Below are positions 1 through 42,365 of a DNA stretch of 51,974 bases, piece after piece; the stretch's first letter is position 1, and each line of letters begins with the position of its first letter. The position numbers and the translations under genes were made by a program. The DNA comes from Clostridiales bacterium (GTDB lineage Bacteria; Bacillota; Clostridia; Lachnospirales; Lachnospiraceae). The stretch lies in the NCBI GenBank assembly GCA_012839295.1, contig DUNO01000042.1:1-51974 (forward strand). The letters are read 5' to 3'. The notes beneath the pieces are model-generated. The model searched no databases. It worked only from the letters and a program-made list of their open reading frames with translations, and was not told where the DNA came from.

Positions 1-84
1 AGAAAGTGTGAAAGAAAGTCACTTTCAAACTATTTATTAAGGCCTATTCACTTTTTGAATAGGTCATCAAAAAGTGAAAGGCAC
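1..84 (+). repeat. Dispersed structured repeat, copy A
   Basis: One of four related copies in the window; the others are at 14171-14245, 42204-42280 (minus) and 51910-51974. It holds a small GAAAG/CTTTC hairpin (14-26) and a 7-bp hairpin CCTATTC/GAATAGG (43-49/57-63). The loop ACTTTTT (50-56) is complementary to AAAAAGT (69-75), giving either an H-type pseudoknot or two mutually exclusive hairpins. The copy ends in GAAAGGCAC, 10 nt before the ATG at 95, so it supplies the leader and probably the ribosome site of the first gene. Function is not known to me. Confidence 0.8.
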
Positions 85-94
85 GGGCATAGAT

Positions 95-802
95 ATGAGA
101 ATTGCTATTGTTGAAGATGAGCTGGGGGTTCAGAAACAATTAGTAGGCTATATCCATCAGTATGAGAAGGAAATAAAGGAAAAATTTGAAATCACCATAT
201 TTTCAGATGGAGATGAGATCACCTATGATTATCAGGCTGTCTATGATATCATCTTCTTAGATATCCAAATGAAACGCATGGATGGTATGAGGGCGGCGGA
301 AGCGATAAGAAAACTCGATATGGATGTTATCATAGTCTTTATTACCAATATGGCAAATTACGCGATAAAAGGGTATTCTGTTGATGCGATGGACTTTGTA
401 TTAAAGCCGATCTCTTATTTTGCTCTGTCACAGCAACTGCGAAAGGCAATCGAAAGAATTAAATCAAATAAAAAATATTATTTACTTTTACCGGTTGAAA
501 ATGGTGTTGAACGTTTGGAAGCATCCAAGATATTGTATATAGAAAGTGTCAGCCGGCGTTTAATAGTCCACAGTGAGCAGAACGATTATACAATTTACAG
601 TACATTAAAGGAAATGGAAGATAAGCTGAAAGGACAGTATTTTTTCCGGTGCAATAATTGTTATTTGGTAAATTTGTCTTATGTGGAAGGTGTGAAAAAC
701 AGTATAGTGACAGTGAAAGGCCGGCAATTACAAATAAGCAGGCCAAAAAAGAAAGCATTTATGGGTGCTTTAGCTGATTATGTAGGAGGAGTCATAAGAT
801 AA
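95..802 (+). CDS. LytTR-family response regulator (AgrA-like)
   Basis: A DNA-binding response regulator. The N-terminal receiver domain has the acidic pair (IVEDE), phospho-acceptor Asp56 in IFLDIQM, and the lysine in LKPIS. The C-terminal LytTR domain runs from about residue 135 to the end. LytTR domains bind DNA through beta strands, usually at direct repeats upstream of target promoters. An in-frame GTG at 74 would add seven residues, but MRIAIVEDE at 95 is the normal family start. The stop overlaps the next start (TAATG), so it is translationally coupled to the kinase at 802. Its leader is the dispersed repeat at 1-84. No agrB or agrD is visible, so this is AgrA-like by family, not shown to be quorum sensing. 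The GH3 gene downstream is a possible target, by position only. Confidence 0.9.
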   Translation: MRIAIVEDELGVQKQLVGYIHQYEKEIKEKFEITIFSDGDEITYDYQAVYDIIFLDIQMKRMDGMRAAEAIRKLDMDVIIVFITNMANYAIKGYSVDAMDFVLKPISYFALSQQLRKAIERIKSNKKYYLLLPVENGVERLEASKILYIESVSRRLIVHSEQNDYTIYSTLKEMEDKLKGQYFFRCNNCYLVNLSYVEGVKNSIVTVKGRQLQISRPKKKAFMGALADYVGGVIR

Positions 803-14077: not shown

Positions 14078-14170
14078 ATATATATATAAATTTTGCCTGA
14101 AATCTTTGGCACTAACTATATTTGCGCTGAGAATATGCGCAGGAATAATGAATAGGTTAAAAGATAGAGA

Positions 14171-14245
14171 TTTTTCAACTTACTTTTTTGATCTGTTCCA
14201 TTTTGAATGGATTTCCCAAAATTGAAAGGCCCGGGTGTTGAAATG
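14171..14245 (+). repeat. Diverged copy D of the dispersed structured repeat
   Basis: Aligns with positions about 29-97 of the window with one gap and about 70% identity over the 3' 54 bases. Hairpin TCCATT/AATGGA (14197-14211) takes the place of CCTATTC/GAATAGG. The loop sequence ATTTTG is again complementary to a downstream CAAAAT (14217-14222), although the bases differ. It ends in GAAAGGCCC followed after exactly 10 nt by the ATG at 14243. Confidence 0.6.
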
Positions 14246-15499
14246 ATACAAAAAAAGAAATCAAAAATAAACCGATATTCTGTTACAACAATTTTATTTA
14301 TCCTTCTTGTATACTTTTACTTTATTGGAATGCTAATTCATTCGAAAGCGGTTGAGTCCACCGTCCGTACTTCCATGGAAAAGGTTACAGAAAATGATAG
14401 TAAGGATCCCTTTGATGTAATAGAGACATTCTTTTCCTGCTGTGACGCTGCTTTTGCAGATAACGTGTATGATAAGTTTACCATGATTGATATCAATGGA
14501 TTGTTTCAGAGAATTCTTCAAAGGAAAATAGTGAATGATGTTGACAGCAGACATACCGTATATCAGCTTGATAATGGACAGCTTACCTATTATTATCCGG
14601 GTTTTGGAGTGAATATTGCGCACAAAAATATCAGAGTTTTAAATGAGTATTTAAATTCTGTTGGAACGCAATTGCTTTATGTACAGGCTCCTCTAAAAAT
14701 TAATAAATATGATAATCAGCTGCCTTATGGTTTGACGGATTATCCAAATCAGAATACGGATAACTTTTTGAAAGGGCTGGACAAATTAGAAATAGACTAT
14801 GTGGATTTTAGGGAAGTAATTCAGGGCACATGTTCCGACTATGAAGCCTTGTTTTACGATACGGACCATCACTGGAAAACAGAGACCGGTTTTTGGGCAT
14901 ATACTTATCTCATGGATTATATGAAGCATAACTATGGGTTTTCTTACGATGAAAGAAACGTTAATTCCGATAATTTTACATCCGTTACAATAAAGGACAG
15001 TTTTATAGGTTCATTAGCGAACCGGGTAGGTACCTGGTATGCCGGGGTGGATGATTTCACGTTTATATATCCAAATTTTGATACAAGCTTTACTTATGAT
15101 AAATATTATCCTTATGGAATCGTAAAGGATTATACACGGGTTGGTTCTTTTACGGATACCTTATTTTTTAAAGAACGTATGGAAAATGGGGACAAAGCAT
15201 TGGCTTATCGTGACAACTGCTATTTTAACGGAAATCCGGCCCTTGTTAACATTACCAATAATAATATTCCGGATGGAAAGCTGTTAGTGGTCCAGGATTC
15301 TTTTGGTAAATCAATTACTCCTTTTTTGGCACTCAATTTTCATCAGATAGATGTATTGGATTTAAGGGATTATAAAGGGATGACGCTCCTTGACTATGTA
15401 AAGGAGAATCATTATGACTATGTAATGATTATTTATAGTCCAAGCTGCTTTAGCAAAGGGCTGTATTATCAGCAATTTAAATTTTACGATTATGAGTAA
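14243..15499 (+). CDS. DHHW-family protein (AlgX/AlgJ-like), O-acetylation partner
   Basis: Type II membrane protein with one N-terminal helix (about 13-32) and an extracytoplasmic SGNH-hydrolase-like domain. The motif DHHW lies at 208-211 in YDTDHHWKTE, with a second block VQDSFGKSITPFL, as in AlgJ/AlgX-type proteins that receive acetyl groups from an MBOAT protein. The ATG at 14243 is chosen over 14207, which has no ribosome site. The upstream leader is a diverged copy of the dispersed repeat, with GAAAGG as the nearest SD-like sequence. It is transcribed with the MBOAT gene or from the 165-base gap between them. Confidence 0.82.
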   Translation: MIQKKKSKINRYSVTTILFILLVYFYFIGMLIHSKAVESTVRTSMEKVTENDSKDPFDVIETFFSCCDAAFADNVYDKFTMIDINGLFQRILQRKIVNDVDSRHTVYQLDNGQLTYYYPGFGVNIAHKNIRVLNEYLNSVGTQLLYVQAPLKINKYDNQLPYGLTDYPNQNTDNFLKGLDKLEIDYVDFREVIQGTCSDYEALFYDTDHHWKTETGFWAYTYLMDYMKHNYGFSYDERNVNSDNFTSVTIKDSFIGSLANRVGTWYAGVDDFTFIYPNFDTSFTYDKYYPYGIVKDYTRVGSFTDTLFFKERMENGDKALAYRDNCYFNGNPALVNITNNNIPDGKLLVVQDSFGKSITPFLALNFHQIDVLDLRDYKGMTLLDYVKENHYDYVMIIYSPSCFSKGLYYQQFKFYDYE

Positions 15500-40371: not shown

Positions 40372-42165
40372 ATGAAGGGAACAGTAGTATCATCCTGGGT
40401 TTTATCCTGCCGGGCGTTATTCGGGAATGAAGTTGTAGATAAAGCATTATTATCCCAGAAATTACATACGGATGTAGTATTTTCCCCCCTGGAGGACGTA
40501 GAGGACAGGGTGGCCCTGGGGATTGTAGATGAAGTAGGCCATTTAATCGGAAAGAACCATGAAGAGATCTGGAAGATCATGGGGGAACAGAACATCAGGA
40601 CCTTTAGCATGAATTATCCGGGGTTCTTCCGGCATGAATCAGCGTATCAGTTTTTGAAGTCAATGAATGATGTCCATATTATTGTCATGAAGCGTTTTAA
40701 AGGGGCAGTGCCTCCGATCCTGGATGTGACGCCGGTATCGAAGAACCAGATACTCTTTACCTACCGTTCCAAGCGGGGGATGCACCATTACCTGCTGGGG
40801 TTAATTAACGGAGTAGCCCATTATTTTAATGAGAATATAGGAATTGAATTTTTAGAGCAGAGGGAGGGAGAGGTCCAGCTTAAATTAACCTTTGATAAGG
40901 AAATACAGTCTATCAAACGTTATGGGCTAAACCGGCTGCTTTCCTTCGGGGTAATTAAGAGGGTATCCATCAAGGCCTCCATCTTTAATACAGCCTTTGT
41001 CCTGCTGGCCGCCTTTCTGCTGCGCACCCAGGTCATAGCAGCGGTATCGCTTGGCGCAGTTGCCTTTGTTGCCTCCATGGTTTCCTCTAGCTTGCTCCAC
41101 CGGCCCCAGAAACTGTTAAAGCAGGAGCTTAAGAGGCTGAGTGAATGTGATTTCATTGAAGACCTTAAGGTGCGTTCGAAGGATGAATACGAGGATATCA
41201 TGAACCTGGTCAATACGGTAAAGGAGAGGGTACAGAAGGATTTTATCGGATTCAATGCCATTGTGGATGAAATGCATACCTTTAACCGTTCTGTCACCGA
41301 CATTGCCGGGACGATGCAGGCTACCTCCAATGATATTACGGCTGTACTGGATGAGGTGGCAATTGCTGCAACAACCCAGGCGGAGGATACGGAACGCTCC
41401 GTAAGCATATTAAGTGACAGCATCAGCCATGTTACCCATATCTCGGAAGAGAGCCAGGATAACGAGCATAAGATTGAAACAGCCATGGAGCGCCTGGAAA
41501 ACAGCTTCCATGACGTGAATAATACGACAAAGGAAATCCGTTCCGTACTTAATAAATTCAATATGATCAAGCAGAACAGCGATGAGCTGCGTAAGAATGC
41601 GGTTGATATGATGCAGATCGTATCTATCGTATCCTCCATTGCAAAGCAGATCAACCTCCTGGCCTTGAATGCATCCATTGAGGCTGCCCGTGCCGGTGAG
41701 GCAGGCAAGGGCTTTGCGGTGGTGGCAGAGGAGGTGAGGAGCCTTTCCGTGGATACCAACCAGGCAGTAGACCAGATTAACCAGAGCCTGACCCAGTTTG
41801 TGGACAGCATTGGCGGAGTGGTCGGTGATATTGATATCCAGTACAATGTCCTGGAAACGGAAAGCGTGAAGCTGACCAATGCGGTAGAGACCTCCAGTGA
41901 TGCGAATTCAAACCTGAAGGCAGTATCGGACCTGATGATCCAGACCTCCCAGGAGCTTAAGGTGGAAGCGGATAATATAGCGGCCTTATTTGATAATATG
42001 CACAGCCTGGCAGCCATTGCGGAAGAAAATTCCGCGGCTACGGAGGAAGCAAGCTCCAATGTTGCAATCTATGTGGATCAGATTAATGAATTGACCAACC
42101 AGATCAATGTATTCAACAAGATGATCGAAAACTTCCAGGAGGATCTGAGTAAATATAAGATTTAA
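40372..42165 (+). CDS. H-NOX methyl-accepting chemotaxis protein (predicted O2 sensor)
   Basis: N-terminal H-NOX (HNOB) haem domain, residues 1 to about 180, aligned residue for residue with Caldanaerobacter Tar4 H-NOX. It has proximal His102 in DVHIIV, Pro115, and the haem-carboxylate motif Y131-x-S133-x-R135. The distal-pocket trio Trp9, Asn74 and Tyr140, known there to hold O2, is also present. Two adjacent membrane helices follow (about 203-243), then an MCP signalling domain with the tip segment [30 protein letters not shown] precedes the ATG. It should bind haem and direct flagellar movement relative to O2 (or NO). Che and flagellar genes are not in the window. Confidence 0.92.
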
Positions 42166-42203
42166 AGAAACGCGGGGCTGTTTCCAAATTCATTGTTATA
42201 CCT

Positions 42204-42280
42204 GTGCCTTTCACTTTTTGATGACCTATTCAAAAAGTGAATAGGCCTTAATAAATAGTATGAAAGTGATTTCCTTTCAA
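42204..42280 (-). repeat. Dispersed structured repeat, copy B (inverted)
   Basis: Reverse complement matches window positions 8-84 with only a few changes; the 55 bases from 42204 are essentially identical to copy A. Read on the minus strand it ends GAAAGGCAC, then 10 bases, then ATG opening a 26-codon frame without recognisable product. It lies 38 bases after the chemoreceptor stop. Confidence 0.85.
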
Positions 42281-42365
42281 TCGTTCTCCATTGTAAATGG
42301 GAGGGATCACGGTATGTGGGATAATTGATGGAAAAATAAGTATTATCTTTGGTGAAAATGACACT

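Follow-up and report, generated by a model that had tools for sequence, protein, structure and literature searches.

Our analysis confirms that the genome from which the window, the whole stretch of 51,974 nucleotides analysed here, was taken carries dispersed copies of a structured leader element, inserted at a highly unusual place. The reading that we favour, at a probability of roughly 0.55, is that of a non-autonomous, MITE-like element of ~95 nt that was inserted between native Shine-Dalgarno (SD) sequences and start codons and relays translation via an SD of its own. Copy number, position, insertion, covariation and predicted folds are established by the data, whereas translation of a mini-ORF, switching and the mode of transposition are inferred. 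An earlier interpretation made from the letters of the window (the sequence-only reading) missed what tells most about the element, namely the native SD that remains 5' of it.

The native SD is followed by the P1 hairpin, with NTG-AAA in its 5' arm, an A/T-rich spacer, the P2 hairpin, a linker whose sequence complements that of the P2 loop, the box GAAAGGYAYGGGTRT and, after 4 nt, the start codon; this order recurs with different sequences across subtypes. The features in the window are listed in Table 1. All four copies that the sequence-only reading had claimed there were recovered by the covariance model, and in each of the three complete ones exactly 10 nt separate GAAAGGC(A/C)C from an ATG downstream, as had been described. 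Pfam matches of the downstream proteins bear out the ATG of copy 1 and of the 14 kb copy as starts of real genes, whereas the ATG of copy 3 opens just 26 codons, which reach in antisense orientation into the end of the 40372-42165 ORF. The mini-ORF of copy 1 stops immediately 5' of P2, and in copy 2 the bases of P2 have changed (GATCTGTTC/GAATGGATT) with pairing retained. The proposed complementarity of P2 loop and linker is real (ACTTTTT/AAAAAGT in copy 1, ATTTTG/CAAAAT in the 14 kb copy), and beyond what had been noted it widens to a 16-bp hairpin of 42-58 with 67-82 that includes the SD; the linker is a possible pseudoknot strand or a possible inner part of this SD-hiding hairpin. The pattern GAAAGGCACNGGNNTNNNNATG with at most 2 mismatches was matched 3 times in the window, versus a mean of 0.19 in 100 shuffles, 0 of which reached 3. 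Both ends of the window (1 and 51974) fall inside copies of the element; thus the repeat limits the assembly, and some copies are left without their gene.

Table 1. The element in the window and its parts in copy 1; copy extents are those of the covariance model.
Feature	Position	Strand	Evidence
Copy 1, complete, type i	4..97	+	cmsearch 114.8 bits
P1 hairpin GTGTGAAAG-AAAGTCA-CTTTCAAAC, single G/A mismatch in copy 1	6..30	+	
Candidate mini-ORF GTG AAA GAA AGT CAC TTT CAA ACT ATT TAT TAA	8..40	+	sequence; translation putative
P2 hairpin GGCCTATTC-ACTTTTT-GAATAGGTC	41..65	+	
Linker AAAAAGT, complement of the P2 loop	69..75	+	
Shine-Dalgarno GAAAGG supplied by the element	76..81	+	
3' box GAAAGGCACGGGCATAGATATG, its last bases being the start codon	76..97	+	
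LytTR response regulator gene downstream of copy 1	95..802	+	Pfam PF04397, PF00072
Copy 2, complete, diverged	14153..14245	+	71.6 bits
DHHW/AlgX-like protein gene downstream of copy 2	14243..15499	+	Pfam PF14286, PF16822
Copy 3, complete, intergenic, away from protein gene starts	42191..42284	-	106.7 bits
Copy 4, ended by the contig edge within or just after P2	51912..51974	+	70.1 bits, 3' cut

The host genome (G000) comprises 6.36 Mb in 82 contigs, of which the window is contig 47. A BLAST search of the complete assembly produced 68 matches, of which the 40 strongest represent separate copies and the remainder are short alignments with the opposite arm; since 40 of the 93 first-look candidates were scored, 40 copies are a lower bound. 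The box pattern with at most 1 mismatch occurs at 71 sites, versus 0 for the reversed pattern. A genome-wide covariance-model search, as the sequence-only reading had proposed, was run with R1, a model of P1 and P2 built from 23 copies, and gave 76 hits at E<=0.1 and, in the host stretches around those hits, 77 hits at E<=0.01. Eleven of the 77 end at a contig edge before the start codon, and 48 of the 66 assessable hits lie at an ORF start (an ORF of >=60 aa whose start codon is -3 to +6 nt from the model end); in 43 of these the start codon coincides with the model end. The remaining 18 lie away from ORF starts, and 13 of these still have an ATG in place, a number open to slight bias because R1 contains the ATG columns. 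This bias hardly applies at 90 bits and above, where 26 of 35 hits are at ORF starts and the other nine, without exception, also end in ATG. Among 28 complete copies selected in another way, the ATG stands at the end of 15/19 genic and 7/9 non-genic ones. The element thus occurs as many short, near-identical copies at unrelated sites, as MITEs do. Random placement, absence of the spacing and absence of covariation had been named as evidence that would count against the proposal; the copies are not placed at random with respect to genes, the spacing is mostly kept, and both pairings covary (see below). The alternative wording of a repeat recruited as leader is supported by the fixed distance to the start codon, the many copies, the unrelated genes behind them and the absence of the element from most of the orthologous sites compared in the close relative.

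These genes are often core genes (pgk, era, trmD, argR, argJ, atpF, fliG). Among 20 chosen downstream proteins, 18 matched Pfam families (LytTR regulator, DHHW/AlgX-like, ABC ATPase, TIM barrel, AzlD, binding protein, CCG domain, aldo/keto reductase, DHDPS, PGK, Era-type GTPase with KH domain, TrmD, ArgR, ATP synthase B, ArgJ, CbiQ, aconitase C and FliG) and two had no match. Several copies start a few nucleotides past the stop of a same-strand ORF, which fits a post-transcriptional role. The upstream ORF stop lies -1 to +24 nt from the P2 foot in 7/17 P1-less copies, the foot being placed by a loose pattern that missed it in some decayed copies (an 18th row, xseB, has no P2 and was excluded). 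Coupling to upstream stop codons was nevertheless discarded, as the contrast is weak, since P1 fills that space in P1-bearing copies. Box-only sites (hisH, cysD, xseB, ParA-like and others) were excluded from the element counts, and a site inside a long ORF (L046) was taken as chance. At one locus (L120 1720-2310; C77:153737-153843) the 3' end is inverted and duplicated, with GAAAGGCACGGG boxes on both strands of the palindrome. At another (L031/L072; C2:196012-196105) the P1 arms are intact but the loop between them reads TGACTTT in place of AAAGTCA, an exact inversion that points to template switching or recombination of DNA at this palindrome.

Eight clean orthologue comparisons show the element between the native SD and the start codon and a sister genome without it; they therefore identify an inserted, MITE-like leader with its own SD (GAAAGGYAYGGGTRTNNNNATG). 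The pgk gene was matched in 30 of the 34 genus genomes, and among the 25 pgk leaders compared (host and 24 relatives) the element is found in the host alone, the relatives having an SD-like stretch near the ATG. Typed host gene fragments were located in the close relative G012 (15 of 18) and in G029 (7). Comparison of 16 host genes, pgk included, with G012 gave 12 ordinary leaders, one leader with the full element (ecfT) and three with the 3' box alone (argR, hisH, cysD; hisH and cysD are box-only in the host too). In the reverse comparison, five of six G012 genes with the element were found in the host, and all five are empty there. The cleanest host junctions with the element between SD and start codon are those of atpF, era, argJ and pgk; at atpF the host has AGGAGGGAAAA, the element and ATAATG, and G012 has AGGAGGGGAAATTATG. 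In the reverse comparison, the native SD region is retained before P1 at L259, L269, L274 and L275 and lost at L268, and the flanks of L275/L329, where the start codon is TTG, match the empty site within ~2 nt. Host copies at trmD, queH, glf, rng and pgm are 5'-truncated or lack a recognisable native SD. Among the 28 complete host copies, an SD-like 4-mer occurs in the 18 nt before P1 in 12/19 genic and 4/9 non-genic ones.

Target-site duplication at the cleanest sites amounts to 0-2 nt, with exact boundaries ambiguous, and no terminal inverted repeats were seen by eye in types i and ii. The candidate mobilising enzymes sought were Y1 transposase and reverse transcriptase. The Y1 transposase family (PF01797), expected for a REP/RAYT or IS200/IS605 derivative, gave 0 matches in G000, with 5/14 control genomes positive. 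The reverse transcriptases of the host genome are one 470-aa group II intron enzyme with intron domains and a fragment; a reverse transcriptase as mobilising enzyme was set aside, no link to the element being shown. A phage or plasmid origin was also dropped, as blastn gave just short weak matches (E 0.09-0.9), and nine viral contigs with the 22-nt box were taken as chance because no hairpin leader was seen in the 80 nt upstream. The genus seems to have another repeat, GGCAGAATGGAGG or a variant, which stands immediately 5' of start codons and is sometimes preceded by a small GCCGC..GCGGC-type hairpin. It was seen at G004 pgk (L150), G029 ecfT (L199), argJ (L195), glf (L193) and G012 rng (L194), and in the host at L108 just before 1270; the 'native' SD upstream of some elements may belong to this repeat.

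With R1 at E<=0.01 and stricter filters, the element was found in 5 of 61 genomes (host, G012 with 27 hits, G029 with 10, G016 with 3 and G031 with 1); at E<=0.001, it was found in 4 of the 299 genomes of the family, the host being one of them. The box alone is present in 22 of the 34 genus genomes (host 48, G012 22, G021 8, G016 7, G029 7, others 0-2), versus one match of the reversed box across all 34. A stricter box was found in 8 of the 299 family genomes, host included. Among named genomes the box occurs in nine stretches, seven from two Herbinix MAGs and two from other Lachnospiraceae. In seven genus genomes the box GAAAGGYAYGGGTGT stands, without a clear hairpin leader, before the ATG of one orthologous gene whose proteins start MNQLYAE or a close variant (L212, L215, L216, L217, L219, L220, L230); this is either what remains of an old insertion or the origin of the box. 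Under subtype names coined in this analysis, types i and ii belong to the host, type iii mainly to G012, with an extra hairpin in a P2 loop that is replaced wholesale, type iv to G016 and G329 and type v to UBA7199 and G320, and single divergent forms occur in G221, G230, G164 and G320. An SD-like stretch lies immediately before P1 in several subtypes. The divergent L282 (G230) has a strong hairpin in place of GAAAGG and keeps GCACGGGTATAGTTATG, so that its SD may be lost. At L289 (G329), P1 is followed almost directly by the 3' box before a 198-aa ORF, an internal loss of P2, and L036, L049 and L113 are 5'-truncated, otherwise consensus copies.

P1, P2 and the loop-linker pairing covary. In alignment A2 (60 copies, 54 distinct, filtered from a loose hairpin scan, minus L006 and plus the 14 kb window copy; two such scans gave many chance rows) 95.6% of P2 cells are paired, a percentage inflated since the rows were picked for a P2-like hairpin, and 87.8% of loop-linker cells, a pairing that was unselected. 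Eight of the 16 pairs changed on both sides versus 3.1 in shuffles (0/500 reach 8; the alignment rows being related, these and the following shuffle fractions are not probabilities), and 24 cells did so versus 8.8. Slid controls were 31-56% paired; with partners slid by -1, nine pairs changed on both sides versus eight in register, but only 13 cells versus 24. In A1, 23 rows chosen by similarity, P2 is 99.0% paired, and for the three helices jointly 0/500 shuffles reached the observed values for cells paired, cells changed on both sides and covariation score, 6/500 that for pairs changed on both sides and 139/500 that for further pair types. P1 is 90.5% paired in 14 subtype representatives (A3), a value inflated by their choice by hand, with five pairs changed on both sides (1/500); MAFFT seems to shift subtype iv by one column in this set. 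Loop and linker lengths change together in type ii. In one P2 pair G-U is the commonest form (34/52 in A2), and this common G-U suggests selection on RNA rather than DNA. The SD-hiding hairpin alone is 92.2% paired with five pairs changed on both sides, a number reached by 26/500 shuffles; it shares the loop-linker pairs with the pseudoknot, thus covariation cannot separate the two.

The window leader folds far below its shuffles (z -4.05), into P1 and the SD-hiding hairpin. Its predicted energy is -30.2 kcal/mol with the SD hidden versus -24.8 with P2 forced, a cost of ~5.4 kcal/mol, and forcing P2 lifts the SD unpaired probability from 0.02 to 0.76 when folded without pseudoknots. The models point to two mutually exclusive RNA folds, a long SD-hiding hairpin or P2, possibly with a pseudoknot, and the SD free. 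The SD unpaired probability is <0.3 in 28/36 host sites with the P2 pattern and in 17/36 other box sites. In a shuffle test on 43 named loci, 35 of them scored and each represented by its first box-like site, types i/ii had a mean of 0.11 versus 0.49 in shuffles, with <0.3 in 12/13 copies versus 22% of shuffles. The corresponding means were 0.48 versus 0.50 in type iii (1/6 hidden), 0.65 versus 0.59 in type iv (1/8) and 0.28 versus 0.48 in other genera or species (5/8). Hence the hidden SD is a property of some subtypes, not all. The 'portable translational switch' of the sequence-only reading holds in its first half, the element preceding unrelated genes and being mostly absent from the sites of the relative, whereas the switch is no more than plausible, a fold that hides the SD being predicted for types i/ii and five of eight divergent copies and types iii and iv not differing from shuffled sequence.

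Where the old SD survives, the NTG-AAA of P1 lies a few nucleotides past it, and SD and NTG are well spaced in several copies. In the relay that we propose, the old SD would recruit ribosomes that initiate at this NTG and translate a mini-ORF. In types i and iii this frame ends at the P2 foot; in most copies of type ii and some of type iv it closes immediately ahead of the new SD. By passing or halting there, the ribosomes would keep the anti-SD strand unpaired, so that the new SD could start the gene. The commonest mini-ORF of types i and iii is TTG or GTG AAA GAA AGT CAC TTT CAA ACT ATT TAT TAA. Ungapped copies of these types retain TAA in 41/42 and TTG/GTG in 38/42, a frame kept by construction, as the 42 (27 distinct) were chosen at <=6 mismatches to the consensus. 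In four of six type ii copies the stop codon is a TGA that overlaps the new SD, and three of six type iv copies stop at the base before this SD; the full mini-ORF table, with many chance and duplicate rows, was unused for whole-set counts. The mini-ORF changes in the 42 copies (34 amino-acid, 5 silent, 1 stop) give no sign of selection on the peptide, and a conserved leader peptide was rejected accordingly. Translational attenuators of the ermC/cat type combine an upstream mini-ORF with mutually exclusive hairpins, one of which hides the SD of the gene. In those subtypes in which the SD is predicted to be hidden, the modelled element would resemble them in all three respects, whereas it is portable, precedes unrelated genes and has an unconserved peptide sequence. 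Several observations speak against the relay: amino-acid changes in the mini-ORF outnumber silent ones 34 to 5, its frame is broken in L013, L030, L109 and L114, many copies have lost P1 and therefore the mini-ORF, an obvious SD 4-mer before P1 is present in only 12/19 genic full-length copies, and at L268 the native SD is gone. Against the switch, subtypes iii and iv hide the SD no more than shuffles do.

More tentatively, the element might be a mobile one that targets translation start sites and relays the translational signal of the host gene through a bistable RNA. Insertion would take place a few nucleotides before a start codon (ATG; TTG in L275 and L067; ATG in the intergenic copies), whereby the old SD would gain a start-like codon and the old start codon an SD. 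The fixed 3' end together with the 5'-truncated L036, L049 and L113 would allow RNA-primed, retro-type insertion.

The strongest competitor to the favoured reading, itself rather doubtful, is a constitutive MITE-like repeat with a 3' end that makes a good SD by coincidence; its hairpins would serve transposition, not regulation, and gene-proximal insertions would have been purged unless the spacing was right. Near-identical, dispersed copies, the open SD in subtypes iii and iv, the P1 loop inverted in place at L031/L072, which points to DNA-level rearrangement, and the 18/66 assessable hits away from ORF starts are all consistent with it. Selection on genes, however, gives no explanation for the ATG that ends every non-ORF copy of at least 90 bits (9/9), 7/9 of the other non-genic set and 13/18 of all non-ORF hits, and the frequent G-U pairs in P2 suggest selection on RNA. 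Bacterial small repeats (BOX, RUP and SPRITE of pneumococcus; ERIC, BIME) are described as short, multicopy and hairpin-forming, and sometimes transcribed beside genes (PMC3049150). Like these and like MITEs, the element is short, forms hairpins and has many copies. It differs in that it separates an SD from its start codon and brings an SD of its own, and neither terminal inverted repeats (looked for by eye in types i and ii) nor a clear target duplication were seen. A word search of a MITE review for Shine-Dalgarno, ribosome and start codon gave nothing (PMC10969869). The same review presents Rickettsia palindromic elements as palindromic repeats tolerated where the host gene keeps working (PMC10969869). 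Our element is likewise a palindromic repeat at positions that leave the host gene working, but the Rickettsia elements lie in frame inside ORFs and are translated, whereas this one precedes the ORF and replaces the start signal. Among the literature matches listed, mostly from outside subscription journals, there was no description of such an element.

A conventional cis-regulatory RNA regulon, with a riboswitch or protein-binding leader spread by duplication before a coherent gene set and acting via the SD, is unlikely. That several subtypes are predicted to take either of two exclusive folds around the SD, and that the distance to the start codon is constant, would suit it, but the functions of the targets are unrelated, without the coherence expected behind a riboswitch, most sister-species orthologues compared lack the leader, and the P2 loop of subtype iii is replaced wholesale. 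Rfam searches with the window and eight subtype loci gave no match at the gathering threshold and, at E<=10, only scores far below it, in agreement with the earlier statement that the leader matches no known riboswitch. In the H-type pseudoknot translational riboswitches preQ1-I, SAM-II and SAM-V, a hairpin loop pairs beside the SD. The loop of the element also pairs with a segment adjoining the SD, but in contrast to these riboswitches its sequence varies between subtypes, there is no Rfam match and the targets have no common function.

An RNA thermometer, in which the A/U-rich SD-hiding hairpin melts with temperature, is very improbable: for the 36 P2-bearing copies the median SD unpaired probability is 0.075 at 37 C and increases to 0.22 at 55 C, and Herbinix relatives are reported from thermophilic biogas reactors and digesters, but 22/36 copies are still <0.3 at 55 C, and subtypes iii and iv leave the SD unhidden at 37 C. 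That the 3' box is an N-terminal extension read as GTG/TTG-AAA-GGC-ACG-GGT-RTN-NNN-ATG is hardly credible, as the frame is lost in copies whose start codon stands at offset 18, 20 or 23, L215 has a stop immediately before the box and the orthologues compared align from the ATG, even though many copies have an open frame that begins with GTG or TTG and the ORF list begins argR at that GTG.

Translational switching and start-site targeting are thus put forward as hypotheses on an element whose structure, dispersal and position are confirmed. If the reading is true, a mobile RNA element has taken the place of the ribosome-binding region of tens of genes in one lineage, some of them core genes, and the genes have survived; this would show how a selfish repeat can enter one of the most constrained positions of a bacterial genome. 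One RNA control device could then be placed before many unrelated genes at once. Furthermore, two questions would become testable, the targeting of translation starts and the relay of translation signals through an inserted leader.
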